39,783 nt of DNA. Origin: Coriobacteriales bacterium (lineage in GTDB: Bacteria; Actinomycetota; Coriobacteriia; Coriobacteriales; UMGS124). A program made the position numbers and the translations under genes. Shown piece by piece: positions 12,897-29,514 of this stretch; the first letter of the stretch is position 1; each line of letters begins with the position of its first letter. The notes beneath the pieces are model-generated. The model was given only the letters and a program-made list of their open reading frames with translations. It was not told where the DNA came from and ran no database searches. The stretch is from contig JAFWFL010000063.1 in the NCBI GenBank assembly GCA_017515595.1, positions 1 to 39,783 on the forward strand, written 5' to 3'.

Positions 12897-15800
12897 TTAT
12901 TCTTCTTTATTTGCCATGCGGAGGGCTTCCCGGACTTCGCTGCCGCCGTGGCTGTACTCGGTCCCCATGCCGGTATCCCATTCAAGAAGGGGATGTCCAA
13001 CGCGTTGGTGTGGCTCGGGCATGAGCATATAGAGACCGTATTGCATGCGGAGAAAGATCTCGGGGTGTGCCATCATATTGACCTTAATATCTTCGAACTC
13101 GACTTCCCGGTAGGGGAGAAGGTCGCTCTTTTTAACCATGGTATATGAGGGTACAAAACTTGCCACATATTCCAGGTTGTCGCGCTCGGCGACATCGTTA
13201 TAGGTTTGGACAATCTTGTCATACGCTTTTTGAGTGCGTTTAAGTGGTATCGACCAATAAATCAGAGCATAAATGCCGCCCATTGCATGGGCAAAGTAAT
13301 AAAACGGGTTGCGCTTTGTCTGGGTGTCTTCGCTTAGAAGCTGGCCTTTTGGATACTGGCGGTTCACTGTTTTGTTGTGTTTTGCTTCTATCTTGCGTAC
13401 CTTCTTTTTAAAGGAACGAAGCTCCTTAGTATCATTCGGAACAGCATCAAAGGGGAAGATATCTACGCAAATACCTTTATGGAAATCACGGTATTTATTA
13501 TATTCGGTGATATATGAGGTTCCGTTCATACGTACCTTAGAGAACAGATACGGAATCTTAGGGTCGCTCGCACGCGTTTGCAAGAAGAACTTGTCTGAGT
13601 TAATGATTGCGGGCGCCTCGGCTTTAAAGCGCTCGTAATCTTCGCGCAGCATACCAACGTCAATATCGTCATCCCATGGGATAAAGCCACCATGTCGCAG
13701 ATAGCCAAGCATGGTTCCGCCGCAGACAAAGTATCCGATGCCAAGTTCTTTGCAGACGCGGTGAATCTCGCTCACAATTTGTTTTGCGACTTCCTGTAAT
13801 TCTTTGAGTTCGGGAGTTGCGGTGTCGAGAGGCTCGCCTTCCCACTCAGTTTCGAACTCGGGAGCCCAGGTTTCGACTCCGTGGAACATGACCCTGCGAT
13901 AGTTGCCGATTTCATTTTTAGAGACAACTTTTGTTCTCGATCCGAGGAAACGCGTTACATTGGGAGCGTCGCAGTCTTCGAATTTTTCTGCCTCTTTAAA
14001 GAGTTGATCGAGAACAGTTTTTTTTGGCAGGAAGGCGGCAGCGGTCTCTTTGACAAATGTTTTAAAGCTACGGCGTTTTTTCCGGAATGCAAAGAAACGC
14101 CTTTTTGGTTTTTTCTTTGATCGAGCCGAGTATATGCCATTGAGGTTTTTCATGAAGACAAAGTAGGTCTTCTTGGTGAGATAGTCATCGGTAACCGATG
14201 TAAAAATTGAGAGTTCAATGCTCGGGCGTATGGTATGCGGTATGCGCTGACCATGTGTTTCCATGTGTATCGGGAACGCGCTGCGAATCAACGGAAGCCT
14301 GCGTGGCCAGTCGGGCTTAGATTCGATATAAAACGAGATGGTCCATGGAATAGCGCCCGGGTGAACTTCATTGGGATCGTTGCATATATCGCGCAGTTTA
14401 AGATACTCGGGGTATAACAGTCCAATCTGCAGTTTTGCTGCTCCGGGGATAAAATCGCAGTAAGCATCGGCTCCTTGCAGAGTATCCGAGAACAGGAAGT
14501 ATTTGACTTCATGCTCGTTGCAAAACTTGTCAAATGACGCAAGCATTTGAGCGAGAGCATCGCGTTTTGCATCGATCACGACGGCCTCTTTGTAAATATT
14601 ATATTCAAGACTGCGAATAGGCTCGTCTCCCAAGGTAGTGCGCACGAGGTCTGCCTCTTTGGGGGAGAGGGCCATAAACCCCGAAGCCTCGCTGTCTATC
14701 TCCATGGTGGGCGTAATCTCTTCGGGCAAAGGAAGATTAAGATCCCAGGCGGTGCCTTCTGCCGGAGCCCATGTTTTTACTCCGTGTAGCAAAACGCTTC
14801 TCAGGTTTTTTGCACAGCTCATGGGAATGGGGATAGAACGTGCGCCCATAACACGTGCAACTTCCAAGGCCGGTTCCCGGTCGTTATCGGGATATTCGTA
14901 TTGGAGCGCTGCCTCCTTAAGGGTGCGATATTTGCTCTCGGAGAGGCGGCGCGGAGCCTTCTCGTATGCTTTATTAAGTGTCCTCATCCAGGTAAAGTAT
15001 GCTATTTTTTCTTGTGGATCATTTGGCAAGGCCGAGAAAAGCGATATTTCAATAAAAGCACGTACATCTTTTGGTAGAGAAGCCCGGTCAAAAACAGTTT
15101 TTCCGTCAAATATAACAGTGCGTCTGAACTCATCTTGGAATCTCAAAACACGGCGCGGAGTGTTGGAGCGTTTTGAGCGCATGAGAACCACCGAGAATTG
15201 AGGAAGCTGGGATGTATCCAAAGTAACATTGTTTTTTTGCGCCTGTTTTATAAGCTCGGACTTAAGGGGATCAAGCTTACGTGGCATATATTCATTGGCA
15301 ACACGCAAAAACTCAAAATAACTATCCTTGAGCATACCGACTTCAAGGCGCGATCTGTTAGGCAAAAAGTCATTGTGAACCAGAGCTCCCTGGAGCGTCC
15401 TGCCAATTAAAAAGTAGGAAAGCCCATGTTCGGCACAAAACTCATCAAAAAGCGTTAATAGATGCGCCTGCGCATCCTGACGGAAAGCTTTCGTTGCGCT
15501 GTCTTTAAACTTATTAAAGGCTCTGCCTGCTACTTTGTTGACCCTAAACGCTGAGATAACAAGGTTATGACCCTTGCCCAGAAGGGCGTCCTCTACTGTT
15601 TCTCTGCACGCATAACCGGCTTCGAGATGGTCGGTCCAGGGTGTTATTCCACCCGGGATCCAGGTCTCAATCCCATGGAATTCCGTACGGTTAAGGTTGT
15701 CTAAAGAAGTCTTTGGAACAGCCTGTCCACGCGAGCCGAGCACGCACATGACCTCATTAAAAACTGAGGTTTCATAAGTAAATGCTTTGGTAAAAAGCTC

Positions 15801-16676
15801 TGAGCGGAAGAGATCAATATCTTCTCCCTGTGCTCGTTTTGCTTCGCGTTCAAGCTCTCGGACCTCATTGAGAAAATCATAACGTTCCTGAGGCTCAGCA
15901 GGTACAACGGTAAAAATAGATACTTTGATGCGCGTTTTAACAAACAAGTCGCTTTGATCTATAGCATCGTTTATAGCTTCAACGTCAAGAGGCGCGGTAG
16001 AATCATCGTCAAATTCCTCATCGCCCTCGTTATTAAAGAGAGCATTTGCCGTGGGCTGTCCCAGGAGATCGGTAATAACCTGGATTTCGTCGGCATCGGT
16101 TTTTTCTTCTTCTGTTGCTATGTCTTCGGATGTTTCTTCGGCCAGATCGCCGGTATCATCGGCTTCCTCGGGTTCGTCTTCGGAAACAGTATCAATTTCC
16201 AAAGGGGCATAGTTTCTGATGAGAGGTTTAAACCTTGTATGGAGACCCCCGTCTTTATCTGCAAAATAGAGCGAGATAAAGAGTTCGTCGGACACCTTTG
16301 CCCAATTGTCTTTTCCTACTGTTTCGAGTCCGGCTACCGCTTCGCAGAGTGCTTTATACCCTTGAGGACGCAAACCTATTTCTACACCGGTTTTTTGGGA
16401 AAGGTAGTCATGTTCAAGTTCTGCGCCAAGCAGCGTATCTGAGATGAGAAAATATGGTATCTCGTGTTCAACACAAAATGCATCAAAGCAGGCCAGCAGC
16501 CGGGAAGACGCTTCGCGCCTTTGCTCGAGGGGATCAATCTGAAAATACGATCGTTCAAGATTTTTTACAAAAGTATCCCTCTTCAGAGGAAATGCTTCTT
16601 TATATGCCTCGAACTGGTCTTTTACCATGGATTGGTTATTATCTGAGGCATCGTTTTGCTGGCCGGTTGTTTGCAT
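12897..16676 (-). CDS. Giant LicD-family protein: three degenerate modules plus one active LicD domain
   Basis: A 1259-residue protein with four LicD-like modules. Each module opens with a similar helix and strand: FDAFCVEHEIPYFLISDTLLG (key part near residue 80), FDEFCAEHGLSYFLIGRTLQG (about 425), FDKFCNEHEVKYFLFSDTLQG (about 730) and VCKELGIGYFVCGGTMLG (about 980). Only module four has the metal-binding FIPWDDDIDVGM (Asp1002-Asp1004, Asp1006); at that place the others read SQKTGVEIGL, NRSRLEVGM and GAAKLQIGL. Modules 1-3 each close with HG[IV][EK]TW (near 332, 630, 931). Module 1 contains an acidic Asp/Glu-rich insertion (about 170-235). Module 3 has a Lys/Arg-rich patch. No signal peptide, so probably cytoplasmic or membrane-associated. 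The ATG at 16676 is one base after the GatZ stop, indicating coupling. Transfers a phospho-alcohol from a CDP donor, by family; donor and acceptor unknown. Confidence 0.87.
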   Translation of the reverse strand: MQTTGQQNDASDNNQSMVKDQFEAYKEAFPLKRDTFVKNLERSYFQIDPLEQRREASSRLLACFDAFCVEHEIPYFLISDTLLGAELEHDYLSQKTGVEIGLRPQGYKALCEAVAGLETVGKDNWAKVSDELFISLYFADKDGGLHTRFKPLIRNYAPLEIDTVSEDEPEEADDTGDLAEETSEDIATEEEKTDADEIQVITDLLGQPTANALFNNEGDEEFDDDSTAPLDVEAINDAIDQSDLFVKTRIKVSIFTVVPAEPQERYDFLNEVRELEREAKRAQGEDIDLFRSELFTKAFTYETSVFNEVMCVLGSRGQAVPKTSLDNLNRTEFHGIETWIPGGITPWTDHLEAGYACRETVEDALLGKGHNLVISAFRVNKVAGRAFNKFKDSATKAFRQDAQAHLLTLFDEFCAEHGLSYFLIGRTLQGALVHNDFLPNRSRLEVGMLKDSYFEFLRVANEYMPRKLDPLKSELIKQAQKNNVTLDTSQLPQFSVVLMRSKRSNTPRRVLRFQDEFRRTVIFDGKTVFDRASLPKDVRAFIEISLFSALPNDPQEKIAYFTWMRTLNKAYEKAPRRLSESKYRTLKEAALQYEYPDNDREPALEVARVMGARSIPIPMSCAKNLRSVLLHGVKTWAPAEGTAWDLNLPLPEEITPTMEIDSEASGFMALSPKEADLVRTTLGDEPIRSLEYNIYKEAVVIDAKRDALAQMLASFDKFCNEHEVKYFLFSDTLQGADAYCDFIPGAAKLQIGLLYPEYLKLRDICNDPNEVHPGAIPWTISFYIESKPDWPRRLPLIRSAFPIHMETHGQRIPHTIRPSIELSIFTSVTDDYLTKKTYFVFMKNLNGIYSARSKKKPKRRFFAFRKKRRSFKTFVKETAAAFLPKKTVLDQLFKEAEKFEDCDAPNVTRFLGSRTKVVSKNEIGNYRRVMFHGVETWAPEFETEWEGEPLDTATPELKELQEVAKQIVSEIHRVCKELGIGYFVCGGTMLGYLRHGGFIPWDDDIDVGMLREDYERFKAEAPAIINSDKFFLQTRASDPKIPYLFSKVRMNGTSYITEYNKYRDFHKGICVDIFPFDAVPNDTKELRSFKKKVRKIEAKHNKTVNRQYPKGQLLSEDTQTKRNPFYYFAHAMGGIYALIYWSIPLKRTQKAYDKIVQTYNDVAERDNLEYVASFVPSYTMVKKSDLLPYREVEFEDIKVNMMAHPEIFLRMQYGLYMLMPEPHQRVGHPLLEWDTGMGTEYSHGGSEVREALRMANKEE

Positions 16677-16677
16677 G

Positions 16678-18012
16678 TTATCGTATGTCTCCTGCGCGGC
16701 GCGGTCTTCCCATTCCGCAGTAGTTGGTGGCCGAGAGATAGCAGTCAATGCGCGTGCCAATGGCATCAAGCAAAAGGTCAAGCGGCTCGTTACGGAGTTC
16801 TCCGCTGCGTACCTTAAAGTACTGAGTCGGCATAAACTGGCTCAGAATGCAAAGAGGGATGACATTATGCGAGAGGTTCTCCAAAAGCTTTGCGCGCGCA
16901 GCTACAACGCGTTTATCTGCAAGATAATATCGACAACGGTCTAAGAAACTATACGTACGCGCAATGCGCTGTTCATGCTCTGATCCTTTGTAATATGACT
17001 GCCAGTGCTTGGGATTTTCGAGCATGACTTCTTCGAGCGTGGCGCGGTAATCCGAGAGTATCTCGGGTGTCTCGGCATAAACAATGCGTTCAATCTCTTC
17101 GAGGGCAAACATCGCTTCGCGTTGTGAGAAGGTAAGCGCAGGTCCCACTTTAAGAATCGCAACGCCGTCTTCGCACATGCGGGTGAGGTTTTCTTCTGTC
17201 TGGTAATCACTTGAGTGGCCTTCAATGCACAGGGGTACGTTGCGCATAGCTTGTACTACGCCTACCGTGCGGCGACGGTCATATTCGTCAAGAGAAAACT
17301 CGTGGAATTCGACTCCCATCTCGACTACCAAACCAACCACGCGCTCAAACGCTTTGCCGCAGCCTACGCGCTCAAACTCTTCGCGATATATCTCGATGGT
17401 TTTAAGGGCGTCGTTCGGAGCGGTAACGCCCATAATCATTCCGCTGCATTCGCCTCCCGGCACGGGAACCTCGCTGCCAATGATATAAACAGGCTCAACC
17501 GCATCGGGGTGCTCGATGCGGTATGTGTCAAAAGCACGTTCACAAGCTGCGCACAAGCGCACTCCGCGCTCTGCACATACCTTTACCGGGAACGGAGCAT
17601 TTGGATCATCGGAAGCCACGCGCATTGATGTGTCGAGGTGAATTTTTGAGTAACCGGCCATTATGCAGCTAACTACAAGCTTCTCGGCTTTATCCATGGC
17701 TTCTTCTGCGTCAAGATGAGTCCAAGGAAGCGGACCCAGGTGGTCGCCGGCCAGAATAATGTTATCACGACGAACGCCCATTTCGCTCGCAAGGCTGTAT
17801 ACGAGAGCGGCAAAATCCTTGGGCTGCATGCCGGTATAGCCGCCTTCTTGGTTGACTTGGTTGGAAGTAGACTCAATGAGTGCAGGAGTGCGTGTGGCCT
17901 GAGCACGGCGCAGGGTTGCCCTGATTACGTCGGGGCTTCCCGAGCAGCATGACCAGATACCCGCACGGTATCCTGCTTTGTTTTTCTCGACAATTTCTTG
18001 AACTATATGCAT
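16678..18012 (-). CDS. GatZ/KbaZ-like protein (tagatose-bisphosphate aldolase subunit family)
   Basis: Belongs to the GatZ/KbaZ family, the non-catalytic or chaperone-like subunits of D-tagatose-1,6-bisphosphate aldolase, which share the class II aldolase barrel. Family signatures are clear: ALIESTSNQVNQEGGYTGM (residues about 40-60), LAGDHLGPLPW, KIHLDTSM, YIIGSEVPVPGG and CIEGHSSDYQT. At 444 residues it is slightly longer than usual. No GatY/KbaY catalytic partner is in the window, so it may act alone or on a different sugar phosphate. Its ATG shares a base with the stop of the dehydrogenase gene (TAATG), a sign of translational coupling, and the LicD gene starts one base after its own stop. 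In this operon it may supply the ketose phosphate that is reduced and activated, which is inference. Confidence 0.87.
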   Translation of the reverse strand: MHIVQEIVEKNKAGYRAGIWSCCSGSPDVIRATLRRAQATRTPALIESTSNQVNQEGGYTGMQPKDFAALVYSLASEMGVRRDNIILAGDHLGPLPWTHLDAEEAMDKAEKLVVSCIMAGYSKIHLDTSMRVASDDPNAPFPVKVCAERGVRLCAACERAFDTYRIEHPDAVEPVYIIGSEVPVPGGECSGMIMGVTAPNDALKTIEIYREEFERVGCGKAFERVVGLVVEMGVEFHEFSLDEYDRRRTVGVVQAMRNVPLCIEGHSSDYQTEENLTRMCEDGVAILKVGPALTFSQREAMFALEEIERIVYAETPEILSDYRATLEEVMLENPKHWQSYYKGSEHEQRIARTYSFLDRCRYYLADKRVVAARAKLLENLSHNVIPLCILSQFMPTQYFKVRSGELRNEPLDLLLDAIGTRIDCYLSATNYCGMGRPRRAGDIR

Positions 18013-19067
18013 TATGAAACCTCGCTTGAATCGATGAGGATTTTACCCGTTATTTGAGAAGGACTCTTAAAGCGGTCAAATGCCGCCCTACCCTCTGCGA
18101 GTGGGTAGATGCGGTCTATCATTTGCGGATTGATGATAAGTCTGTTTTGTGCAAAGAGCCGGGCTACATCTGTCCATTCGCTGCCGGGCCAGGGTGCCGA
18201 GTAAGACATCCACGAGCCGGTAACGTGCAGCTCTTTGCGGTTGATTTGTTCCCATTGAGAAATGGTTAAAGAGATGTCCTGCTTTGGCGTTCCCACAAAA
18301 CAAACCGTGCCGCACGCTGCAGCTATGGCACATGAATCTGCGATGGTTTGAGAATTTGCGACTGTGTCGAATACCATGTCAAAGCCTCGGCCGCCACTGA
18401 GTTCTTTTGCGTTTTGTTGCCAGGAGTCCTCGGCGCTGCAAAGGGTGGTAAGACCGCTCAAAAGCTGCGCGGTCTCAAGACGGTGTGCCGAGCGGTTTAT
18501 AACCACAACCTTTGAGGCATCAAGCGCAACAAGTTCCTGTGCAAGCAAAAGCCCAATAGTCCCGGCGCCAATGACTGCCACGCTTGTACCGGCTTCGAAC
18601 CGGGCCAGGCGTAAAGCATGCATACCTACGGTCGCAGGCTCAAAAAAGGCAGCTTCGAGATCACTTATATTATCGGAAACTATGAAAAGGTTTGCGGTGG
18701 GCACGCATACATACTCTGCCATACTGCCGTCTATGCGAGAACCGATAAAGCGGTAATGTGTGCACTGCGAATAGTGACCGAGGGCACAGTCTTCGCACTC
18801 CATACAGGGAACGAGCGGGACTCCCGCTACACGTTTGCCTATGAGATGTTCGTCTTTTGCACTGCCCACGGCTTCGACTATGCCCGAAAACTCATGCCCC
18901 AGCACAATGGGGAAGCCGTGAACACGGCCTTCGAGCACGCGCGGCACGTCGGAGCCGCAGATACCGGTATAATGAACGCGGACCACAGCTTCGTTTTCGC
19001 CGGGCTGAGGGACGGGGCGTTCCAGAACCTCAAGTGTATCGCGAGCAGTTACAACAAGAGCTTTCAT
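18012..19067 (-). CDS. Zinc-dependent polyol-phosphate dehydrogenase (GatD/TarJ-like)
   Basis: A medium-chain alcohol dehydrogenase of 351 residues. It has the catalytic zinc site (GICGSDVPR and GHEFSG), the structural zinc site with Cys spacing 2-2-7 (CMECEDCALGHYSQC) and the nucleotide-binding GAGTIGLL. The segment GSWMSYSAPWPGSEW closely resembles galactitol-1-phosphate dehydrogenase GatD; ribitol-phosphate TarJ proteins belong to the same superfamily. It should interconvert a ketose phosphate and a polyol phosphate with NAD(P)H. The ATG at 19067 (MKALVV) is chosen because the 19 upstream residues have no MDR character and would overlap the cytidylyltransferase gene. It sits between the cytidylyltransferase (19-base gap) and GatZ (coupled), pointing to production of a polyol phosphate for activation. 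The exact polyol is unknown. Confidence 0.88.
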   Translation of the reverse strand: MKALVVTARDTLEVLERPVPQPGENEAVVRVHYTGICGSDVPRVLEGRVHGFPIVLGHEFSGIVEAVGSAKDEHLIGKRVAGVPLVPCMECEDCALGHYSQCTHYRFIGSRIDGSMAEYVCVPTANLFIVSDNISDLEAAFFEPATVGMHALRLARFEAGTSVAVIGAGTIGLLLAQELVALDASKVVVINRSAHRLETAQLLSGLTTLCSAEDSWQQNAKELSGGRGFDMVFDTVANSQTIADSCAIAAACGTVCFVGTPKQDISLTISQWEQINRKELHVTGSWMSYSAPWPGSEWTDVARLFAQNRLIINPQMIDRIYPLAEGRAAFDRFKSPSQITGKILIDSSEVS

Positions 19068-19086
19068 AGATAACCAGCCTTTGGGA

Positions 19087-19794
19087 TTAGAAGTAATAGT
19101 CGTGGAACAGGTGCATGAATGCATCCATATCCTGCCGGTAGGTAATTTTAAGGTTGATGTAATCTGTGGGGATAACTTTCATAACAATATCGTAAGCACG
19201 TGCAAGCGCTCCTGCTGAGGTATAGCTCTCGAGTTCGGGAATGGTTGCATTACGGTATATTTCCCAAATACGGCCAAATCTAAATGCCTCGGGGCTGGCG
19301 CCCGAGACAATGGTTTGACGGGGAATGACATCTTCGATGGTTTGGGTTTGCGGGTTAATCTGATACACTGTGTCGTATTGGCAGGCGCCGAGCGTGGCTC
19401 CTCCGCATTCATGTGTTGCCTGGATAACCCTTGCCACACCTTCCTCGTCCACATAGGGGTGGGTTGCGTCATGAATAAGCACTACGTCGTCTTGATTGGC
19501 ATATTCCGAAGCACATGCAAGCCCGTTGCGAACCGACTCTGACCTACTGGACCCGCCTGCTACAACACGAACCGGTTTGCCGAGGTGTAAGCTTGACGTA
19601 TACTCTTTGGTATAATCCACCCACTGATTGTTGCAGACAATAATAATGCTGTGAATGCAGGAAAGTGTTGCATATTTCTCAACAATATAACTGAACAATG
19701 GTTTTCCTGCTACATCTGTAAACTGCTTTGGAATCTTTGCCCCAAAGCGTGTTCCCGAACCGCCCATCATTAGCATAAGAATATTTTCTGACAC
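19087..19794 (-). CDS. IspD/TarI-like cytidylyltransferase
   Basis: Couples CTP to an alcohol phosphate to give a CDP-alcohol. The CTP-binding loop is MMGGSGTRFGAKIPKQF (residues about 8-26), followed by GKPLFSYIVEKY, RVVAGGSSRSESV, VVLIHDATHPYV and IPRQTIVSGASPEAF, all in the IspD/TarI order. The 235-residue length is normal. IspD makes CDP-methylerythritol in isoprenoid synthesis and TarI makes CDP-ribitol for teichoic acid; the families are hard to separate by eye. Position at the head of an operon with a polyol-phosphate dehydrogenase and a LicD protein favours the TarI-like role. The GTG start at 19794 is supported by AAGGA seven bases upstream. Confidence 0.88.
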   Translation of the reverse strand: MSENILMLMMGGSGTRFGAKIPKQFTDVAGKPLFSYIVEKYATLSCIHSIIIVCNNQWVDYTKEYTSSLHLGKPVRVVAGGSSRSESVRNGLACASEYANQDDVVLIHDATHPYVDEEGVARVIQATHECGGATLGACQYDTVYQINPQTQTIEDVIPRQTIVSGASPEAFRFGRIWEIYRNATIPELESYTSAGALARAYDIVMKVIPTDYINLKITYRQDMDAFMHLFHDYYF

Positions 19795-19968
19795 GGTGAC
19801 ATCCTTACTCGAGAAGTAAACAAAACTCTATAGGCTAAGTTTAGGTGATTTTGATGTCTTAAAGCAAGCCAAACGCCTATGAACACATAATCATGCATAT
19901 AAAGTTCGTTGTATATGTATATAATAAAGCCAAACCCGTTTGACGGCTCGGATTTAAATACCAAGACA

Positions 19969-19997
19969 TTGAGTTTTGGTAAGATGTACACTATAAG
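19969..19997 (+). promoter_or_regulatory. Promoter of the cyclodeaminase-LicD operon
   Basis: TTGAGT (19969-19974) and TATAAG (19992-19997) are separated by exactly 17 bases and lie about 60 bases before the ATG at 20056. The 261-base gap to the divergent cytidylyltransferase gene should also hold a minus-strand promoter, but I found no convincing one. Confidence 0.6.
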
Positions 19998-20009
19998 TTG
20001 TACACTATT
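19986..20009 (+). repeat. Tandem TGTACACTAT repeat over the promoter
   Basis: TGTACACTAT occurs twice (19986-19995 and 20000-20009), 14 bases apart, overlapping the -10 box and the start region. Each contains the palindrome TGTACA. It may be an operator or a duplicated -10 element. Confidence 0.6.
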
Positions 20010-20055
20010 TAAGCAAGAGTCGCAGTCTTATTTTTTGAGCATGGAGGCGTTTTTT

Positions 20056-21009
20056 ATGAAGGTGGTTACTTTTGAAGATATTAAAGCGCTTGGTATCGGG
20101 CCTCTTACGTGCCTGGATTGGGTACAAACAGCTATAGCCCGCAAGCGTGAAGCATTGCTACCTCCCAAAATCAGCCTCAAGCCTTTTGACGGGGTTTTTT
20201 GCAACGTGATGCCCAGTATGTTACCGCATGACCAAATGGGCTTAACGGGTGGCGTTAAAATCGTTACCAGATATCCAAACCGGGAGCCGAGTCTTGAGAG
20301 TAGACTGCTGCTTATGAATGCCCAGACAGGCGAGTTCCTCGCTCTAATGGATGCGACCTGGATCACAACAATGCGCACGGGAGCGGTTGCGGCGCATTCT
20401 ATTATGCTTTTTGGTAAAGATGACTTCTCCGTCATTGGAATGATGGGTTTGGGGAACACTGCCCGGGCGACACTGAATGTCCTTGCAGCTGCAATGCCCG
20501 ACCGTAAGTTTACGGTAAAGCTTTTACGTTATAAAAACCAGCATGAATTGTTTATAGAGCGCTTTGCTTCTTATAAAAACCTCGCATTCAGCGTTGTTGA
20601 TACCGCAGAAGATATGGTAAAGGGTTCGCATGTAGTAGTTTCCGGCGCAACGTATTTACCAAAGGATATTTGTGAAGACCGTTGTTTTGACAAAGGAGTT
20701 CTCGTAGTTCCTATTCATACCTTGGGCTTTACAAACTGTGATCTGTTTTTTGACAAAGTATTTGCCGATGATACCGGACACGTATGTCATTTTAAGAATT
20801 ATGATAAGTTTAAAAAATTTGCAGAGGTATGCGATGTGGTTAACGGAATAATTCCGGGTCGCGAATCGCAGGAAGAGCGGATTCTTGCTTATAACATAGG
20901 GATTTCGTTGCATGATATTAATTTTGCTGCAAACATTTTCATGATGCTTAACCACGATACGCTTCCTGATATCGATATGCACGATCCGATAGAAAAGTTT
21001 TGGGCATAA
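20056..21009 (+). CDS. Ornithine cyclodeaminase/mu-crystallin family protein
   Basis: A 317-residue NAD(P)-dependent protein of the ornithine cyclodeaminase superfamily, which includes ornithine cyclodeaminase, alanine dehydrogenase, ketimine reductases and SbnB-type amino-acid synthases. Visible family features are ALMDATWITTMRTGAVAAHS, carrying the conserved Asp and Arg, and the Rossmann motif VIGMMGLGNTARATL. The ATG at 20056 is chosen because GGAGG (20043-20047) lies eight bases upstream; the open frame extends upstream through the promoter and is not used. It heads a plus-strand operon, with the large LicD gene 14 bases after its stop. The reaction cannot be read from sequence. It may provide an amino-containing precursor for the glycan or its phospho-substituent, which is speculation. 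Confidence 0.85.
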   Translation: MKVVTFEDIKALGIGPLTCLDWVQTAIARKREALLPPKISLKPFDGVFCNVMPSMLPHDQMGLTGGVKIVTRYPNREPSLESRLLLMNAQTGEFLALMDATWITTMRTGAVAAHSIMLFGKDDFSVIGMMGLGNTARATLNVLAAAMPDRKFTVKLLRYKNQHELFIERFASYKNLAFSVVDTAEDMVKGSHVVVSGATYLPKDICEDRCFDKGVLVVPIHTLGFTNCDLFFDKVFADDTGHVCHFKNYDKFKKFAEVCDVVNGIIPGRESQEERILAYNIGISLHDINFAANIFMMLNHDTLPDIDMHDPIEKFWA

Positions 21010-21023
21010 CGGAGATATGGCGC

Positions 21024-23387
21024 ATGGTTAAAGAATATATAAAAAAAATCACGGTAGTTTCGGTCGGATGGCACGATACGTTGCTCTGTTTTTCATTTGA
21101 GGTAGATCCGTGGCATACAGAAGACACCTTTGATGTACATGTGTTTTTGGAGGCATATAACGAGAAATCGACTGTTGCCCGCTGTGAATGTGCGCCGGCG
21201 TGCTTCCAGGGAAAAACAATATGGTCAGGCCTTCTTGACGCCCGGAATATCTGCAAACATGCGTCTAAACATTCCCGGGAGGGTATACGGTTCCGGCTTG
21301 CCTTTGAACAGGGTAAAGTACGGGAAGTATTGCCATGCGCCAATACCAAGTTCCAAACACCCGGTTGTATGAAGGCTTTTACGTCGGGTTATTATGCGAC
21401 AAACGACTTTTTGCTCTTGCCCGATGAAACCGGGACAAGGGATTTTATTTTGCGCCTGGTCGGCTCTAAAGAAGATGTATCCCAGCAAGCATATGCCCAT
21501 ATAAAACGCAACAGGCCACTCTATAACAATATTTTGCTTCAGAGTTTCTCGGTAGGGGCAGGGGTTGCCCAAAAGACCGCACAAGCAATTAAAAACGGAA
21601 CTCTGTGGACAAGGATTTATTATAATAGTGATGATGAGCCATGTGTTTTATGCCGGGTCAACAATTCGATTGAATTCTCTGTTTGTTTGAGCAGCACCGG
21701 AGACCTTACCCCGCTTACATTTCTTGATGAGGGGAAAACGCTTGACGAGGTAACATATGATACCTGGTGCCAGCAAGAAAGGGATATCCTTTTAAAACCG
21801 TTCTTCTTTTTTGATGACTTTTGCCGCGAGCATGGGTTCAAATACATGCTGGGTTACGGGACGCTCATTGGTGCATACCGGCACCGTGGCCTGATTCCCT
21901 GGGACCATGATGTAGATATTGTTATGCATCGTGACGAATACATGAAGCTCAGGGCTTTTATGGATAGTCCCCAAGCGCCGGAGGGCTGGTTGCTTGACGA
22001 CTGGATGAGTATTCCCGGTTATCCCTGTTTTATGGGCCGTGTTATTCAGGTTGGATCTACAAAGTTTAACGTCAACAATACCTACGGACATGCGGGAATA
22101 GGGAACTTTGGCCTGGCGTTTGACATATTTGTGATTTGCCCGGTATCTTGTGAGGAGGGCAAAGAACAAGAGCTTGCAAATGACTACTATGCTTTTGACG
22201 AGCTGTACATTCGCATGCGTCGCGGAAAAATGGCAAGACGCGATCTTTTTGCATCCCGGTATGAAATGATGCAAGAGCGTTTTGCAAAAGAAGGCCCCGC
22301 GGCTGTTTATGATGATATTTGGAACCATATGATGAATGCGGCTCCCCAAGATACAACACACTATCTTACCTCGACTTCCGCAGTTTCTATACGCCGGAAC
22401 CACCTTTTTGACAAAGCGTGGTTTGACAAAACGGTTGATCTTCCGTTTGAGGGAAGGATGTTGCCCGCTCCAGCCGGATATCTGGAATTCCTACGCTCTG
22501 TTTACGGTCCAAATTTTAGAAAATTTCCTGCGGACAGGATCCCCAAACGCTACATCCATCTGCGTGATGAGAACCTTCCCTTTGGAGTGGTTAATAAAAC
22601 CTATTTATCAGAGTATAACCCCAAGGATGAGATTGATGCCCGTAGCAGGGCAAAAGATGTGCTTATGGAAGAGAGCGTCCTGAAGTGCCAGCTGTATCCT
22701 CATGCAATACGTCTGGCTGGACGTAAGACCATGCTCAAACATGAAGCAGCGTTTAAAAAGCTCGATGTATTTCCCAAGGTTAAGGGTGAGTATAAGAAAA
22801 TAGACGCGGTTTGTTCTCCGTACTACGAACTGCAGTTTGGTAAGGATTTCTCCACCTGGATGGCTGCTGTACCCATCAGTAACGGGTATTTTGAGCTGGC
22901 GCTCGAAAACCTTCTGTGTTACCGGGGGGAGTCCGGTGACGCATATCAGCTTATTTCATCACGCATTATTGACGAGCTTCAGGAATCTGATAGTCTCAGA
23001 ATTATTTACGACGCAATCAATAAAACAATCAAAATGCGTGATTGCTATGACTACCATGATTATGCCCGCGCCGGCGCTTTGGCAAAAGAGGTATTGAGTA
23101 TGTACCCGTATGCCGTAGAAGCGAAGGCAATGCTCTGGCTTCTGGATTTGGAGGGGAATACCCAAAGCCCTAAAGATCTTGAGACAATGATTGGTGAGAT
23201 TATTAAAGAAGGCAAACGTACGGTAAGCATCCTGCCGTTGTTCCTTCTGGCGGTTGCTTATAAAAAGCAGGGCAAAACTGACCAATCTTTTGCTTTGGCA
23301 GATTGCGTAATCAACAAGACCGACGATGGGATGCTTATACAGTATCTCGAAGATATGCAAAAGGAGATTGGCTGTGGCAGAGCTTAA
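21024..23387 (+). CDS. Large LicD-family phosphotransferase (copy 1)
   Basis: A 787-residue three-part protein. Residues 1-250 are a beta-rich segment with no family I recognise. Residues about 260-540 are a LicD domain: FKYMLGYGTLIGAYRHRG, then IPWDHDVDIVM (Asp294, His295, Asp296, Asp298) and a closing FEGRMLPAPAGYLEFL. The C-terminal 250 residues are helical and repeat-like (LLCYRGESGDAY, YDYHDYARAGALAKEVL, MYPYAVEAKAMLWLLDLE), resembling TPR-type helices. The same architecture recurs in the mirror-image copy at 25453-27912. The metal motif is DHDVD rather than the DDDID of the giant LicD. The ATG at 21024 has GGAG nine bases upstream; a TTG at 21000 would overlap the previous gene. It probably transfers a phospho-alcohol to a glycan. 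No signal peptide or membrane segment seen. Confidence 0.88.
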   Translation: MVKEYIKKITVVSVGWHDTLLCFSFEVDPWHTEDTFDVHVFLEAYNEKSTVARCECAPACFQGKTIWSGLLDARNICKHASKHSREGIRFRLAFEQGKVREVLPCANTKFQTPGCMKAFTSGYYATNDFLLLPDETGTRDFILRLVGSKEDVSQQAYAHIKRNRPLYNNILLQSFSVGAGVAQKTAQAIKNGTLWTRIYYNSDDEPCVLCRVNNSIEFSVCLSSTGDLTPLTFLDEGKTLDEVTYDTWCQQERDILLKPFFFFDDFCREHGFKYMLGYGTLIGAYRHRGLIPWDHDVDIVMHRDEYMKLRAFMDSPQAPEGWLLDDWMSIPGYPCFMGRVIQVGSTKFNVNNTYGHAGIGNFGLAFDIFVICPVSCEEGKEQELANDYYAFDELYIRMRRGKMARRDLFASRYEMMQERFAKEGPAAVYDDIWNHMMNAAPQDTTHYLTSTSAVSIRRNHLFDKAWFDKTVDLPFEGRMLPAPAGYLEFLRSVYGPNFRKFPADRIPKRYIHLRDENLPFGVVNKTYLSEYNPKDEIDARSRAKDVLMEESVLKCQLYPHAIRLAGRKTMLKHEAAFKKLDVFPKVKGEYKKIDAVCSPYYELQFGKDFSTWMAAVPISNGYFELALENLLCYRGESGDAYQLISSRIIDELQESDSLRIIYDAINKTIKMRDCYDYHDYARAGALAKEVLSMYPYAVEAKAMLWLLDLEGNTQSPKDLETMIGEIIKEGKRTVSILPLFLLAVAYKKQGKTDQSFALADCVINKTDDGMLIQYLEDMQKEIGCGRA

Positions 23388-24393
23388 AGAGGTAGTTTTG
23401 CAATTGCTTGACGAGATAGACTTAGCTACTGTCGCATCAGGTATACCTTATAGTTTAATAGGGTTGTTATATCGCGACGCATGTGTCTTGGGTCAGCTCG
23501 AAGACGCGCAGTATGATGCTGCGATAGCGATTCCTTCTCAGGGACGCGACGCGTTTCTTAAGGCATTGGGTTCTTTGGGTGTAGCACACAGGGAAATTAT
23601 GAATAACTATACCAGTTCTGCCATAATCCCTGCAGATTATTATATTGCCTCAAATACAACGGTAATTGACTTCTCGACGCTTTATGCACCGGGTGTTTAC
23701 GGCGCGAACATCCGCATTTTATCCTTTGACTGCAACAATACCAAAAGCGAGCTTATAAATCCCAATACAGGGCAGATTGTACCGTTTGAAGGCAATTATT
23801 TTGCAAGTATGGCACGAGTAGTTGTGGATAAACATACCTATATGGTCTCACGCGGAGAAACCCGTGTTCTTTTTGAACGGCTTGGCGAATCATGGCGCAG
23901 CGTGACGTGGCCGTATCGCATTTCAAAGGGAAACCGCATGGGTACTATTATCGAAGTCGACATGCCTTACCGTGAATTTTTTGAAGGTGTGCCTATGAAA
24001 TGCGGTTTTGACAAAGAAACAAATATAAAGTGGAGTCGCCTGAAGGAGCTGCTAGAAACAGACCTCGTAGCTGCTAAGGACGAAATGAGTATTTATGACC
24101 GCATTTTTGAACGTACGGAGCACCGTTACAGGCTTTATCTAAAGTATATGCCCCATAAAGAGCGAATTCTTAACGCCTGGCGGGAAGGCCGTTACGACCT
24201 GGTTGCCAAAACCCTGCAAGACTATACCCAAAAACTCAAAGATCATTATGAGAGTACCGGTGTCACGCTTTATTTTGACCGGGAATTTTTTGATATAGCG
24301 GTAAGCATTTTAACCATGTCAAAGTATAAATATGCTAAAAAACTCGAAGCTGCGATTCCCGAGTCACATAAGCTTCCGCTTGCGTTTGAGTAA
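23374..24393 (+). CDS. Small degenerate LicD-like protein (copy 1)
   Basis: A 339-residue protein. Its start, LKEVVLQLLDEIDLATVASG then IPYSLIG, matches the helix-strand opening of LicD domains, but the catalytic IPWDxDxD is absent (the region reads LEDAQYDAAIAI). I therefore read it as a LicD-fold pseudoenzyme; no other family is recognised. It is paralogous to the protein at 24402-25460: both have HK[ED]xIL.AW.EG and a C-terminal [KR]..IP..H..PL. The GTG at 23374 has AAGGAG seven bases upstream and overlaps the end of the large LicD gene by 14 bases, so the two are translationally coupled and may form a complex. The stop is only eight bases from the stop of the convergent copy. Confidence 0.75.
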   Translation: MAELKEVVLQLLDEIDLATVASGIPYSLIGLLYRDACVLGQLEDAQYDAAIAIPSQGRDAFLKALGSLGVAHREIMNNYTSSAIIPADYYIASNTTVIDFSTLYAPGVYGANIRILSFDCNNTKSELINPNTGQIVPFEGNYFASMARVVVDKHTYMVSRGETRVLFERLGESWRSVTWPYRISKGNRMGTIIEVDMPYREFFEGVPMKCGFDKETNIKWSRLKELLETDLVAAKDEMSIYDRIFERTEHRYRLYLKYMPHKERILNAWREGRYDLVAKTLQDYTQKLKDHYESTGVTLYFDREFFDIAVSILTMSKYKYAKKLEAAIPESHKLPLAFE

Positions 24394-24401
24394 AACACAT
24401 A

Positions 24402-25460
24402 CTATACCTCAAGTGCATATATCGGATTATGTTGCTCCGGAACCGGTACCTCAAGCGGAGATAGATGATCCTGAGGGATAGCTTTACGTAATGTGTTATC
24501 ATCAAATGCGGGATCGGTATTTTTAATCACATCGACCGCCAATTCAAAAAGGTCTTTGTCAAAGCAAATCGCTATTCCCGATTCATTATAGAATTCGATG
24601 AGGAGCGTTGTATAGAGCCGCAACGCGCTTTTAACAGCGCCTTTTTTACCTTCTTGCCAAGCTTGGAGGATCTCGTCTTTATGAGCGGCATATTTTTGCC
24701 AGAGGATATATCTGTATTCGGTTAAGGTAATTGCATAGTTATTTTTTGTAACGCGCTTTTGTGCCGGTTTTAATACTTTTTTATTCCATGCTGCGAGTGC
24801 ACGGTATTTGTCCAGGAATACCTCATAGTCAATGCCTTGGGTATTGAGATTTTGTGAGAACTTGGAGAATGGGACGGTTACAGAAGAATAAATACTATCG
24901 CTTAACAGGGGCGTGCGGTACGGCCACTTTTTACAAGCCCACTCATCTTTAAAAATGGAGGTAAACATAGATCGGTAAAACTGAGAGATGCTCAGCGATG
25001 CGGTTTCGAACTTTATGGACTCTGTCATTTGGAAAAAAATCGGGGGAAGGCTCACGGAGTCTATCCAAAACGGGTGGTAGCACAATGTCCCGTCTAAATC
25101 ATATGTGGGCAACTCAATGCGCACGGCAATATTAACGATTTGCTGGTCAAATGTGCGGGAGATATCTATGAGCGTTGTTGTGGTATCAGCATAATATGCA
25201 TGGGTTACCGGTCCAGTATCCGAGGAACATTCTATTAGGCTTCTCCCGCTATACGCTGAAGAGCTAACCCTCTCTTTAAAGGCGGCATAACCTTGAATTG
25301 ACATACATATTGAGACCACATAAGTGTTATCAACAAAACCATGTTTGGTAACAGCATCAAACGCGAGTTTGTCTACGAGGCTATAGGATATTGCAGCTGT
25401 CTTACAGATTGAATCTATCTCGCAAAGGAGTTTGAGCAGAACTTCCTGGACATTATTCAT
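24402..25460 (-). CDS. Small degenerate LicD-like protein (copy 2)
   Basis: A 352-residue paralogue of the protein at 23374-24393, on the opposite strand. EVLLKLLCEIDSICKTAAIS and YSLVDKL give the LicD-like opening, and AYYADTTTTLIDIS parallels YYIASNTTVIDFS in copy 1. The catalytic Asp cluster is missing. Both copies share WPYR in the middle and a long helical C-terminal part. Its ATG overlaps the stop of the upstream large LicD gene by eight bases, so the pair is coupled as in copy 1. The C-terminus (LRKAIPQDHLSPLEVPVPE) is also found as a relic behind the acyltransferase gene at 29.5 kb. Function unknown; a partner or scaffold for the active LicD is the simplest idea. Confidence 0.75.
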   Translation of the reverse strand: MNNVQEVLLKLLCEIDSICKTAAISYSLVDKLAFDAVTKHGFVDNTYVVSICMSIQGYAAFKERVSSSAYSGRSLIECSSDTGPVTHAYYADTTTTLIDISRTFDQQIVNIAVRIELPTYDLDGTLCYHPFWIDSVSLPPIFFQMTESIKFETASLSISQFYRSMFTSIFKDEWACKKWPYRTPLLSDSIYSSVTVPFSKFSQNLNTQGIDYEVFLDKYRALAAWNKKVLKPAQKRVTKNNYAITLTEYRYILWQKYAAHKDEILQAWQEGKKGAVKSALRLYTTLLIEFYNESGIAICFDKDLFELAVDVIKNTDPAFDDNTLRKAIPQDHLSPLEVPVPEQHNPIYALEV

Positions 25461-27912
25461 AGATGCCCTCGCTTACGTCAGCTTCAAAAAGGCGGGAGAT
25501 GAACATACCGTCAAAACCCTGCTCGGCATAGTAATGGGCAAGAGGGATGTAATGTGCGGGGTCATGAGAGTATCCGTGCAGCATAGCCATGAGAAAAGCA
25601 GGCAACCGGCTTGATGTATGCAGGGCAAGCGTTTTGATATTCTCTTCTGTTTTTGCGGTCAATTGGTTGCCGGTGGATTCTTCGAGATCTAAAAGGTACA
25701 ACATACTTTGCGCTTCTACGGCATCGGGATACATCTCAAGGACTTCCCGGGCAAGCGCGCGGGCCCTCTGTTTGTTGTGGTAATCATAGGAGTTACGCAT
25801 AGCCACGGTTTTCTCGACAGCATTTACAAGCGTATCACATGAGGCGCCGAGTTCCTGATTTGCTTCTTTATAAGCCCGGATGATTAAATACGCGTCACCG
25901 CTTTCGCCCCTATAGCATAAGAGGTTATAAAGAGCAAGCAAGAGCAGGCGGGGTGATATGGGGATTATTGTTTTCCAATCAAGGTTTACACGGGATGTCT
26001 GCTCTGCGTAGTAGGTATTAAAGAGGGTGTCCAAGCTCTGGGCCGAAGGCTGTCCCGAGGAAGCAGCAAGGAGCTTTTGGTAGTTCAGCTCAAGTTTCTG
26101 GGCCGCGGCCATGGCTTTTATGGTATATATCGCCCGGTTGATATAGCTCTTTTTATAAACTTCTTCCATTTGGATGGCTTTAAAGGCTGCGCGGTCTTCA
26201 AATTCTTGGGCAAAATCAATTTGGGACTTATAGGTTGCCAAGGGGATCGAATAGGGTATGGATTCGGACCTGAAGTGATGATAGTGATGCGGTTTGTGGT
26301 CTGGCGGATACTTCCTAAATCCCGGTCCGTATGATGCAAGGAGGATCTCAAGATAATCTGCCGGACAGGGAAGTGTACGATCCTCGAACGGCATTTCTAT
26401 AATGGTGTCAAACCACTCTTTTTTATAAATGTAACCGCTTGGGGCATCTGACGCGGTTGCGATGTAATACTCGGCATCTTCACGCGTGCTTACCAGGACC
26501 TCCCGGCTTAACTCGGCAAGAACCGCTTCTTCGCCTTCGGTTTCGCAGCGTTCAAGGTAAGAGGAATACTTCTCGAGAAAAGCCTGAGGACGGCACAGCC
26601 TTTTGCGCTTGAGTTTGTTTGACAGTTCATCAAAGACCAAATAGGTATATGCCTGGTCCTGAGCTTTTTCAAAAGGTCCGCTCAGGGGTAGCAGGATATA
26701 AATATCAAAAGCGACACCAAAGCCGCCGATCCCGCAATGACCGTACGTATTCTTGTAGTTTAGCTTTGTTGTATTGGTAAAGACAAACCGGCCCATAATA
26801 CCGGGATACCCCGGGCAATTAGACCAGTCGTCGAGCTGGCATTCGACAGGGGCTTGTGGGCTGTCCATGAGGGCCCTGAGCTTGTTATAGTTTGAAAGGT
26901 CCATAAAAAGGTCAACATCATGGTCCCAGGGGATAATACCCTTATGGCGGACTGCCCCAATAAGCGAACCCCATGCGAGGGTGTACTTTATCCTGTTTTT
27001 ACGGCATATTGTGTCAAAATAGAATAACGGTTGCAAGAGAAGGCGTTTTTCTTCCCGTAACCAGACATCGTAGGTAACGTTGTCGAGCGGTTTACCGTTA
27101 TCCAATAGAGTTATTTCTTCGAGGTCATTTGAAGCAGAAATATCGACGTCAAAGCAGGCTCCCTGCTGTAAAGATGCGGGAAGTTTAGGATGCCTTGATA
27201 AAATGCTGAGCCAGGTATTCTGACGGAGCTTTTGTTGGATTTGCTCGGGGACAGATTCTATGCAGCATGTTGCAAACGCCGTCCCCTCATTATCAACGTG
27301 GACAGTTGCGCTCAGCTCATTACGGAGAATATCTGTCGCAATAACATGAGCAACGCCCTTCCCCTGCGAAAGAGCCTTAAGAAGAATACAGTTCACGTAG
27401 GGACGATTGGGCTTCTCAGCTGCAAAAGGTTCTTGTGAGACATCTGCCAAAAGGCCAATGATGCGCAATGTAAAGTCTTTATTTTCATTAATATCGGGAA
27501 TTGCAAGGATGTTATGAAAAAGATAAAACCCCGATACAAAGCTCTTAAAACAATTGTTGATTTGAGTGGTTTGATTTGCACACGCAGATTGAAACACCTG
27601 CATACCATTACGGAGCGTAAGCTTCATACATATGTCTGTCTGTACGGTCTCGGTAAAGCGAGAAATTACAGTATCAAGATTGACAGCGGCATACCAAAGC
27701 GTTTGGTTGCTCAGCCTCAATATTCCACAGGGGACATGTGCTAAAGTGGCGGTATCGGTATAGAAATCAAGATATGCTTCAAAGCCAACAAAAGTACTCG
27801 CATTACAGGCGACCGAGAATGTCATGCCCAAATAGGGATTCTTCCATACTACGTCTGTTATTAAGATATGTTTACACAGCTCCTCATAGGAGAGCTCGGA
27901 ATTGCTTGCCAT
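25453..27912 (-). CDS. Large LicD-family phosphotransferase (copy 2)
   Basis: An 819-residue paralogue of the protein at 21024-23387 with the same three parts. The beta-rich N-terminal region covers residues 1-290. The LicD domain contains IKYTLAWGSLIGAVRHKG and IPWDHDVDLFM (Asp330, His331, Asp332, Asp334), and ends with FEDRTLPCPADYLEILL. The helical C-terminal region carries LLCYRGESGDAY and MYPDAVEAQSMLYLLDLE, nearly the same as copy 1. Divergence across the full length means the duplication is old. The ATG at 27912 is used because a promoter lies at 27950-27979, which would overlap the TTG at 27972; the ribosome site (GAGGG) is close, only two bases from the ATG. It heads a two-gene operon with the small degenerate LicD-like gene. 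Confidence 0.87.
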   Translation of the reverse strand: MASNSELSYEELCKHILITDVVWKNPYLGMTFSVACNASTFVGFEAYLDFYTDTATLAHVPCGILRLSNQTLWYAAVNLDTVISRFTETVQTDICMKLTLRNGMQVFQSACANQTTQINNCFKSFVSGFYLFHNILAIPDINENKDFTLRIIGLLADVSQEPFAAEKPNRPYVNCILLKALSQGKGVAHVIATDILRNELSATVHVDNEGTAFATCCIESVPEQIQQKLRQNTWLSILSRHPKLPASLQQGACFDVDISASNDLEEITLLDNGKPLDNVTYDVWLREEKRLLLQPLFYFDTICRKNRIKYTLAWGSLIGAVRHKGIIPWDHDVDLFMDLSNYNKLRALMDSPQAPVECQLDDWSNCPGYPGIMGRFVFTNTTKLNYKNTYGHCGIGGFGVAFDIYILLPLSGPFEKAQDQAYTYLVFDELSNKLKRKRLCRPQAFLEKYSSYLERCETEGEEAVLAELSREVLVSTREDAEYYIATASDAPSGYIYKKEWFDTIIEMPFEDRTLPCPADYLEILLASYGPGFRKYPPDHKPHHYHHFRSESIPYSIPLATYKSQIDFAQEFEDRAAFKAIQMEEVYKKSYINRAIYTIKAMAAAQKLELNYQKLLAASSGQPSAQSLDTLFNTYYAEQTSRVNLDWKTIIPISPRLLLLALYNLLCYRGESGDAYLIIRAYKEANQELGASCDTLVNAVEKTVAMRNSYDYHNKQRARALAREVLEMYPDAVEAQSMLYLLDLEESTGNQLTAKTEENIKTLALHTSSRLPAFLMAMLHGYSHDPAHYIPLAHYYAEQGFDGMFISRLFEADVSEGIYE

Positions 27913-27949
27913 ATCCCTCTGCTTTCTCGGCCATTCGGACAAGTAAAAT

Positions 27950-27979
27950 AGTATACGGGATTTCTGCAGCAACGTTCAA
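27950..27979 (-). promoter_or_regulatory. Promoter of LicD copy 2 operon
   Basis: On the minus strand TTGAAC (27979-27974) and TATACT (27955-27950) are 18 bases apart, 38 bases before the ATG. AACGTTCA occurs at the -35 (27971-27978) and again at 27987-27994, with TTGAACG at 28004-28010, which could be binding sites for a regulator. Confidence 0.6.
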
Positions 27980-28335
27980 GCAAAATAACGTTCACAACAA
28001 GAATTGAACGGTAAATTCGCGACTCTTGTATATGACTGAGATTTTTGACTTCCGAATAATTCGAAGCGGATTTTAAGCTCAAAGAAATGATACAATAACC
28101 AATTTAGAAGGCTAAACGGTATGCTGGTAAGATTACTCTTATTAGTATCTAGTATGAAAAAAAGGAACTGTTACGCATATATTATTAAATAATTAAGCGG
28201 ATTGTATCATCCCGATACTATAGTGGTTATGGAGCAGGTGATAGCTCCCGGTTTTATTGCAAAAGTATCGCCGACAATGCTGAATGGATAGCAAGTTGTT
28301 CTTTATGGTATGAGCGGAGAAAGGCTGGAAACGTT
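27980..28335. other. AT-rich divergent intergenic region
   Basis: About 350 AT-rich bases separate the minus-strand LicD promoter from the acyltransferase gene. I see no gene in it. It holds a short inverted repeat (CGAAT and ATTCG near 28046-28056) and a possible -10 (TATAGT, 28219-28224) without a good -35. The acyltransferase promoter should lie here. Confidence 0.4.
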
Positions 28336-29514
28336 TTGAACGCTTTGGTAAAAACATTACGTGAGGGATTTCCTCTTGAGTGGATAAGTAAACACAGGAA
28401 TGCTATTTACGGTTTATGCATTGTTTGGATCGTGTTTTTCCATGCTACTGCTATTAATAAAGTATATGATCTTTACTATGAGCCGGGATTTCGCTGGCTT
28501 TATAACATTGTGGGTATGGGGAATGTAGGTGTCGATATCTTTTTGTTCCTCTCGGGGATATCGCTCTATTATTCGTTTTCCAAAAATCCTAATACCAAGC
28601 AATTTTATACAAAGCGGCTTATACGTATTGTACCTGCTGTTTGGCTTATAGATGGTATCTATTGGTTTATTCGTTATGTGGTGCTCAAAGGCGATATGGG
28701 TAATTTTTTATCACGCATGAGCACTATGAGGTTTTGGATTACCGGTGATGAAACCATATGGTTTGTTTCGACCATTATTGTGCTCTATCTGTTGTACCCG
28801 CTTATTTACCGTTGGTTGTATTGTAAGCCTAAAGGAATTATCTGGCGTTTTGTTGCGCTTCTAGCTCTCACGTATGGTATGATAGCTCTTGTTGCAACTT
28901 GTTTACCAGCTTGGTACGATAAAGTAGAGGTTGGTCTTACGAGATTTCCGGTATTCATGATGGGCTGTTTTGCCGGCAAGTATGTAAAGGAGTGCAGGCA
29001 CATAAACTGGGTATTTATTTTACTGGCCGTTGTGTGCTCCTGCTTGTTTTTTGTTATTATCCATATGAAAGTTTTTACCGGCATGTACAAGCGGTTCTTT
29101 TATGCTTTTGGTGGTGTCTCGCTTACCTTTACCTTTACGTTGTTCTTCGAATTATGTACGAGAATAACCAAGAATCCCGATCTGGGTCTCATAAAATTCT
29201 TTACCTGGGTGGGTGGGTTTTCGCTTGAACTTTATTTGTCTCACATAATGCTAAACCAGGTATTGCGTCTGCAAGATTTCTATGTCAAAGGCGATTTTAT
29301 TCAGTATGCGGCAATGGCTTGTTGTGCGCTTGTGGTGGCTTGGACTGCAAAGAAAATTATAGATATTGTTTTAAAAAAGCATACATTAAAGTTACGACAA
29401 CAAACCAATGAAGCTCATATATCAGTTGAACAAGCTTCATCTGATGTGGGTAAACCGACTTTTGTTCCTCAAGAACCGATACCTCAAGAGGAACCTCATG
29501 ATTCTCGGGGATAG
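28336..29514 (+). CDS. Membrane acyltransferase, family 3 (OafA-like)
   Basis: An integral-membrane O-acyltransferase that probably adds acetyl or another acyl group to a surface glycan. About ten hydrophobic helices span residues 20-355. The first helix holds the conserved His of the family in GLCIVWIVFFHAT (about residue 37), and RLIRIVPAVWL is the typical Arg-rich loop. GNVGVDIFLFLSGI is another family signature. The TTG start at 28336 has GGAGAAAGG about 11 bases upstream, and no ATG lies nearby in frame. The last 35 residues are hydrophilic and rich in Pro, Gln and Glu; this part is encoded antisense over the relic of a small LicD-like gene, so the tail was probably acquired by readthrough. 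392 residues. Its neighbours suggest action on the same glycan as the LicD proteins. Confidence 0.85.
   Translation: MNALVKTLREGFPLEWISKHRNAIYGLCIVWIVFFHATAINKVYDLYYEPGFRWLYNIVGMGNVGVDIFLFLSGISLYYSFSKNPNTKQFYTKRLIRIVPAVWLIDGIYWFIRYVVLKGDMGNFLSRMSTMRFWITGDETIWFVSTIIVLYLLYPLIYRWLYCKPKGIIWRFVALLALTYGMIALVATCLPAWYDKVEVGLTRFPVFMMGCFAGKYVKECRHINWVFILLAVVCSCLFFVIIHMKVFTGMYKRFFYAFGGVSLTFTFTLFFELCTRITKNPDLGLIKFFTWVGGFSLELYLSHIMLNQVLRLQDFYVKGDFIQYAAMACCALVVAWTAKKIIDIVLKKHTLKLRQQTNEAHISVEQASSDVGKPTFVPQEPIPQEEPHDSRG

Follow-up and report, generated by a model that had tools for sequence, protein, structure and literature searches.

Which activated alcohol is made, and which transferases use it, where genes for several LicD-type proteins lie beside those for an IspD-like, a GatD-like and a GatZ-like enzyme? 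The question is raised by a 39,783-nucleotide stretch of DNA from a Coriobacteriales bacterium (assembly GCA_017515595.1, contig JAFWFL010000063.1; hereafter the window), which is one complete contig of a 3.3-Mb draft genome (G000, 97.7% complete). A first-pass annotation had described one locus at positions 12897-28000 that would decorate a surface glycan with phospho-alcohols. Our analysis suggests, with a probability of about 0.6, that the locus makes a cytidine diphosphate (CDP)-hexitol, most likely CDP-galactitol, and puts galactitol phosphate on a cell-surface glycopolymer, with LicD modules that have lost the metal site (dead modules) as partners of the active ones.

The donor operon and its predicted product

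On the minus strand, the genes for the IspD-like, GatD-like and GatZ-like proteins and for a giant LicD protein follow one another in this order with almost no intergenic space. The GatZ-like protein (16678-18012) matches PF08013 at 2.2e-156 and 521 bits, and Glu44, Asp87, His88, Glu171, His257 and Lys279 of GatZ are kept in it and in its relatives wherever the sequence covers them, one relative being N-terminally cut. With this score and the retained zinc and catalytic residues it falls within the GatZ/KbaZ-like family. GatZ and KbaZ of Escherichia coli epimerise fructose-6-phosphate to tagatose-6-phosphate, and catalytic residues have been proposed for them (PMC11907403). The GatD-like zinc dehydrogenase (18012-19067, in an open reading frame extending to 19124) is a medium-chain dehydrogenase/reductase (MDR; ADH_N/ADH_zinc_N) and not a short-chain one (SDR). 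Its best solved match in the PDB is 4a2c, a galactitol-1-phosphate 5-dehydrogenase (251 bits, the next match reaching 136), and it carries the motif GSWMSYSAPWPGxEW, of which the region GSWMSYSxPWPG is conserved in relatives. The NCBIfam equivalog for galactitol-1-phosphate 5-dehydrogenase, PRK10309, is its closest family and scores 302 bits against a cut-off of 550; the protein is thus related to this enzyme and not its equivalog by that rule. The third protein (19087-19794) is an IspD/TarI-like cytidylyltransferase (PF01128, 2.3e-33), which scores below the TarI-type model NF001183 of NCBIfam (118 bits, cut-off 166) and is an extra paralogue, as a second, higher-scoring IspD is encoded at G000:C53.

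Taken together, these assignments predict a route from fructose-6-phosphate over tagatose-6-phosphate and galactitol-1-phosphate to CDP-galactitol, by which the CDP-polyol donor set recognised in the first-pass annotation can be narrowed to CDP-galactitol as the most likely product. In this route the GatZ-like protein would act as the C4-epimerase, the GatD-like protein would reduce tagatose-6-phosphate to galactitol-1-phosphate, and the IspD-like enzyme would couple the latter with cytidine monophosphate. The reduction might also follow cytidylylation, by analogy with CDP-mannitol and CDP-glucitol synthesis, and the product would be the same.

Active and dead LicD modules

The giant protein (12897-16676, minus strand) probably begins with the ATG at position 16676, immediately after the stop of the GatZ-like gene, within an open reading frame of 1294 amino acids that extends to 16781. 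Pfam detects its C-terminal module only (PF04991 at residues 1010-1249, 1.3e-49). This module, M4 (12897-13796), is an active LicD with the motif FIPWDDDID and reaches 2e-42 in Pfam when searched alone. It is preceded by three dead modules, M1 (15489-16571, with an acidic insertion), M2 (14577-15491) and M3 (13797-14576, which with M4 forms a conserved core), each of which keeps the beginning of LicD (a helix, Y-F-L and T-L-x-G-A) without W-D-x-D-x-D. Two further active LicD proteins are BigLicD_A (21024-23387, plus strand, open reading frame from 21000; PF04991 1.2e-30) with long N- and C-terminal extensions, and the likewise extended BigLicD_B (25453-27912, minus strand; PF04991 2e-28), the latter with a likely ATG start at 27912 in an open reading frame extending to 27972. 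They are 36% identical and carry the metal motifs LIPWDHDVD and IIPWDHDVD. M4 and both BigLicD proteins lie above the PF04991 gathering score with DxDxD present, in line with the three intact LicD proteins of the first-pass annotation.

Each BigLicD gene is followed by a gene for a dead LicD module of about 350 amino acids, and the two pairs are oriented tail to tail. The gene for small_A (23374-24393, plus strand, open reading frame from 23326) likely starts with the GTG at 23374, overlapping the end of BigLicD_A, and that for small_B (24402-25460, minus strand) starts before the BigLicD_B stop. Small_A was assigned by its identity to small_B (26%) and by the family comparison below. All three DxDxD aspartates are absent from M1-M3, small_A and small_B, the loss of the motif being more complete in the small proteins.

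Searches of Pfam and NCBIfam with small_A and small_B at 1e-3 returned no match, and the Pfam LicD scores of the giant's dead modules alone were 0.07 (M1), 4.6e-4 (M2) and 0.023 (M3). A profile was built from 27 LicDs of other genomes, with no window sequence included, and run against a 17-sequence set; it detected M2 (1.5e-12), M3 (7.3e-10), small_B (3.5e-8) and M1 (8e-6). In profile-profile comparison by hhalign, the dead modules matched the LicD profile with 98.7% probability (E 1.7e-16) and the small family with 98.8% (E 4.7e-17). The evidence is weakest for M1, which aligns with M2 and M3. All five sequences stay below the PF04991 gathering score, and by sequence they are LicD homologues and not active members of the family, which agrees with the two small proteins and three dead modules of the first-pass annotation. 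The closest solved structure to the LicD core is FKRP, in which D360, D362 and D364, the equivalents of DxDxD, and D416 are required for activity (PMC6965139). Since the equivalent aspartates are essential there, it is very improbable that M1-M3 and the small proteins act as metal-dependent transferases. In an AlphaFold2 model of the M3-M4 core, M4 was predicted with confidence and matched FKRP (Z 14.6, root-mean-square deviation 3.2, 169 aligned residues), giving it the nucleotidyltransferase-type LicD/FKRP fold in the predicted model.

To what, then, do the dead modules owe their place beside active ones? A small-family profile found nine full-length relatives in six genomes, and all nine overlap or adjoin a BigLicD gene. 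The same profile matches the C-terminal parts of fusions of 760-1134 amino acids, in which an active LicD module stands at the N-terminus and one that has lost the motif at the C-terminus. With such neighbours and with fused forms elsewhere, the simplest reading is that small_A and small_B were once the C-terminal dead modules of two-module enzymes and have become separate proteins. The order of modules in the giant's core (dead, then active) is reversed relative to the fused BigLicDs (active, then dead). Gene fusion and gene overlap argue for a physical partnership, and the dead modules would be pseudoenzyme partners of active LicD, perhaps with a role in acceptor recognition; the proposal that they act as partners is thereby strengthened. 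In FKRP, the acceptor is bound by two subunits together (PMC6965139). M4 would pass galactitol-1-phosphate from the donor to the acceptor. The dead modules, whether fused ahead of M4 or supplied as separate proteins from an overlapping gene that follows (small_A, small_B), would probably contribute to the acceptor site or position the substrate, like the second FKRP subunit. BigLicD_A and BigLicD_B with their small partners would add further phospho-alcohol groups, plausibly from LicA/LicC donors.

Co-occurrence, acceptor and rival explanations

The collection holds only three genomes of the host's family and about 400 of its order, of which 397 were used for co-occurrence counts. A true GatZ was found in 13 of them, the scores being bimodal (500-570 bits against less than 62 for all others), and IspD, GatD and GatZ occur together in all 13. 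LicD genes adjoin this donor set in 11 of the 13 (in G146 at a distance of up to about 2 kb), and matches to the two-module profile of the dead-plus-active core were obtained in exactly those 11, the window's own genome and 10 others. In G374 the core lies on a different contig and another LicD adjoins IspD; in G052 it sits inside a second four-module giant, from another family, with three dead modules and then one active (L181 4184-7741, G052:C102, 1185 amino acids). In G359, a genome with no GatZ, only the active half was matched. Core and GatZ coincide much more often than chance would allow (hypergeometric 9e-20 by genome and 1e-10 by genus, both uncorrected for the ancestry that the genomes share), and the six genomes with full-length small proteins all carry the GatZ operon. 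The gene set is hence conserved as a unit in related genomes, which the first-pass annotation had named as a check of its proposal. In the other two GatZ genomes, G291 and G209, a TagF-type gene (PF04464) follows GatZ in the place of LicD (L179 10944-12464 and L180 7476-9155), as would be expected if the user of the donor set uses a CDP-alditol. Among the matches listed outside the order, which were mostly generic LicD, at least one Bacillota locus, in a metagenome-assembled genome (L048), has the same four genes as an operon; their changed order argues for functional coupling beyond inherited gene order.

In relatives, TagB/F-type (PF04464) and ATP-binding cassette exporter genes adjoin the locus, pointing to a teichoic-acid-like polymer as the acceptor there. 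The window genome encodes a single LCP-family protein. Of its two PF00953 proteins, size suggests one to be MraY and the other to be TagO/WecA-type. It is conceivable, if doubtful, that CDP-galactitol feeds multi-module LicD machines in which the dead domains are obligate, and that the LicD assembly itself polymerises or serially adds galactitol phosphate, building a teichoic-acid-like polymer by LicD.

Could the operon instead make another CDP-alditol, such as CDP-ribitol, CDP-mannitol, CDP-glucitol or another hexitol, as an ordinary TarI/TarJ-like or Mnp-like set? TarI-type enzymes are among the best PDB hits of the IspD-like protein, Eggerthella lenta has CDP-ribitol and CDP-glycerol sets (PMC10234575), and CDP-mannitol and CDP-glucitol are already known (PMC10918830). 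We nevertheless consider it unlikely, as GatZ is the invariant third gene in 13 of 13 genomes and retains its active-site residues, the dehydrogenase is nearest to galactitol-1-phosphate 5-dehydrogenase by 115 bits, and the known CDP-mannitol and CDP-glucitol sets use SDR (PF01370) reductases, with no epimerase described for them. That IspD, GatD and GatZ form a catabolic galactitol/tagatose operon which merely neighbours LicD genes is suggested by the names GatZ and GatD, which derive from enterobacterial galactitol catabolism. A cytidylyltransferase has no catabolic role, however, a LicD or TagF user lies nearby in all 13 genomes, and the set persists in another phylum; no phosphotransferase system or GatY-type aldolase was noticed near the loci, though no systematic search for them was made. 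A catabolic operon is accordingly very improbable. The dead modules, for their part, might be decaying duplicates, or might have an active site that has migrated, and serve no partner function, for which the strong divergence within the small family (18-26% pairwise identity) and the presence of M1 and M2 as extra copies that most relatives lack can be cited. Against this, the core is present in 11 genomes, four of which share it at 42-44% identity, the four-module version recurs in G052, and the small genes remain open and adjoin their partners in six genomes while fused forms exist elsewhere, so that we hold this explanation to be distinctly improbable.

Several observations weigh against galactitol phosphate transfer with dead partners. 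The substrate assignment comes from homology, and MDR dehydrogenases and IspD-like enzymes shift substrate easily; for the IspD-like protein, TarI and methylerythritol phosphate cytidylyltransferases are about equally close. A search of the window's own genome, which is 97.7% complete, gave no TagB/TagF-type (PF04464) gene, and the acceptor there may differ. BigLicD_A and BigLicD_B are candidate users of either donor. In the core model, M3 was predicted with moderate confidence only; its helices and strands follow one another as in M4, and its nucleotidyltransferase matches are weak (Z about 6). An AlphaFold2 run on small_B with small_A as the only second row gave no usable fold (mean predicted local distance difference test score 41.5). 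The kinship of the small proteins and M1-M3 with LicD, as first proposed, consequently stands by profile comparison but not by a confident model of small_B.

A probable second donor branch and relation to known systems

The locus also takes in genes outside 12897-28000. Upstream, on the plus strand, lie a helix-turn-helix (HTH) domain fused to a LicC-type nucleotidyltransferase (7336-8244; Pfam NTP_transf_3/NTP_transferase plus HTH) and an HTH-LicC-LicA fusion of a cytidylyltransferase and a choline-kinase domain (8301-10112; Choline_kinase/APH and NTP_transf_3). The region 7336-10112 has a G+C content of 0.42, its neighbours being higher, and LicC genes 41-43% identical are found near OCD and LicD genes in relatives. 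OCD is an ornithine cyclodeaminase/mu-crystallin family protein (19909-21009, plus strand; PF02423 1.8e-22) encoded just upstream of BigLicD_A and likewise part of the locus. Its homologues (46-59% identical; L189, L190, L191, L192, L193, L138) have LicC-type neighbours in five of six cases (LicC, LicC-LicA or LicC-aminotransferase fusions), some with amidohydrolases and amino-acid permeases as well, and LicD lies nearby in four of the six. A place for OCD in the galactitol branch was considered and dropped, as it is absent from the other annotated GatZ loci and mostly has LicC-type neighbours. LicC, LicC-LicA and OCD would probably form a phospho-amino-alcohol donor branch leading to a CDP-amino-alcohol. 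In L192 (7887-9701) and L193 (5066-6919) a LicC-type nucleotidyltransferase is fused to a CobD/HisC-like aminotransferase and adjoins OCD, perhaps for a CDP-amino-alcohol made from a phosphoamino acid. The sixth homologue, in L138, adjoins a fused BigLicD and a TagD-like cytidylyltransferase that is itself fused to a Gfo/Idh/MocA-type oxidoreductase (8669-9982). The first-pass reading is supported with a refinement: the locus divides into two or three separable modules, and the LicC/LicA/OCD genes seem to belong to a different branch.

Downstream, a family 3 acyltransferase membrane protein (28336-29514, plus strand; PF01757 4.2e-29), with homologues in or beside related loci L012, L013, L128 and L143, may O-acylate the polymer. 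Elsewhere in the genome, contig C26 (L017 5006-9936, G000:C26) has a separate lic-like set with LicC-LicA, LicC, a BCCT transporter and a LicD of 294 amino acids. At L137 (8015-16654) and L141 (7217-17480), fused BigLicDs occur in pairs among several divergent IspD-like genes, which likely serve other CDP-polyol donors; the L141 region also holds an FGGY kinase. No Rfam match and no tRNA gene was detected in the window.

How far does the locus resemble described systems? Like lic loci (LicA, LicB, LicC and LicD; phosphocholine), the window has LicC/LicA fusions and LicD. To our knowledge, described lic loci have neither a GatD/GatZ/IspD operon nor dead LicD partners. In the ISPD/FKTN/FKRP pathway an IspD-family enzyme and a LicD-domain phosphotransferase serve CDP-ribitol (PMC4873967), and in it as in bacterial TarIJ an IspD-family cytidylyltransferase makes a CDP-alditol; the window locus differs from both in its predicted alditol, its GatZ epimerase and GatD-type reductase, and its dead LicD modules. 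It shares with Mnp1/Mnp2 of Streptococcus pneumoniae 35A (CDP-D-mannitol) and HS5.18/HS5.17 of Campylobacter jejuni (CDP-6-D-glucitol) a fructose-6-phosphate-derived CDP-hexitol, a PF01128 enzyme and a surface polymer, whereas in those systems an SDR reductase acts on CDP-fructose with no C4-epimerase and yields another product (PMC10918830). Their pairing of an IspD-family enzyme with a PF01370 SDR is absent here, as the adjacent reductase is an MDR. GatZ and GatD belong to the same families as E. coli GatZ/KbaZ and GatD (PMC11907403), but are coupled to a cytidylyltransferase and transferases, which argues that the locus is biosynthetic and not catabolic. The strain-variable teichoic-acid region of E. 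lenta is also an alditol-switching envelope locus (tarI/tarJ or tarD/tagF), for ribitol or glycerol and with no GatZ/GatD set described (PMC10234575).

In the open-licence literature no account was found of CDP-galactitol, of galactitol phosphate teichoic acids or of GatZ in such a pathway, nor of dead LicD partners or of LicD in Coriobacteriia, and no described system with this combination turned up, as the first-pass annotation had anticipated. IspD with LicD, CDP-hexitols and alditol-variable teichoic regions are already known; the new parts would be CDP-galactitol as the donor and the pseudoenzyme arrangement. If correct, galactitol and a logic of C4-epimerase, reductase and cytidylyltransferase would join the known CDP-polyol donors of the bacterial envelope, whose polymers matter in these bacteria for the interaction with phages and host. 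It would also provide a bacterial case of LicD/fukutin-type transferases that rely on pseudoenzyme partners, a partnership that could help to explain acceptor recognition in the family, including human FKTN and FKRP.

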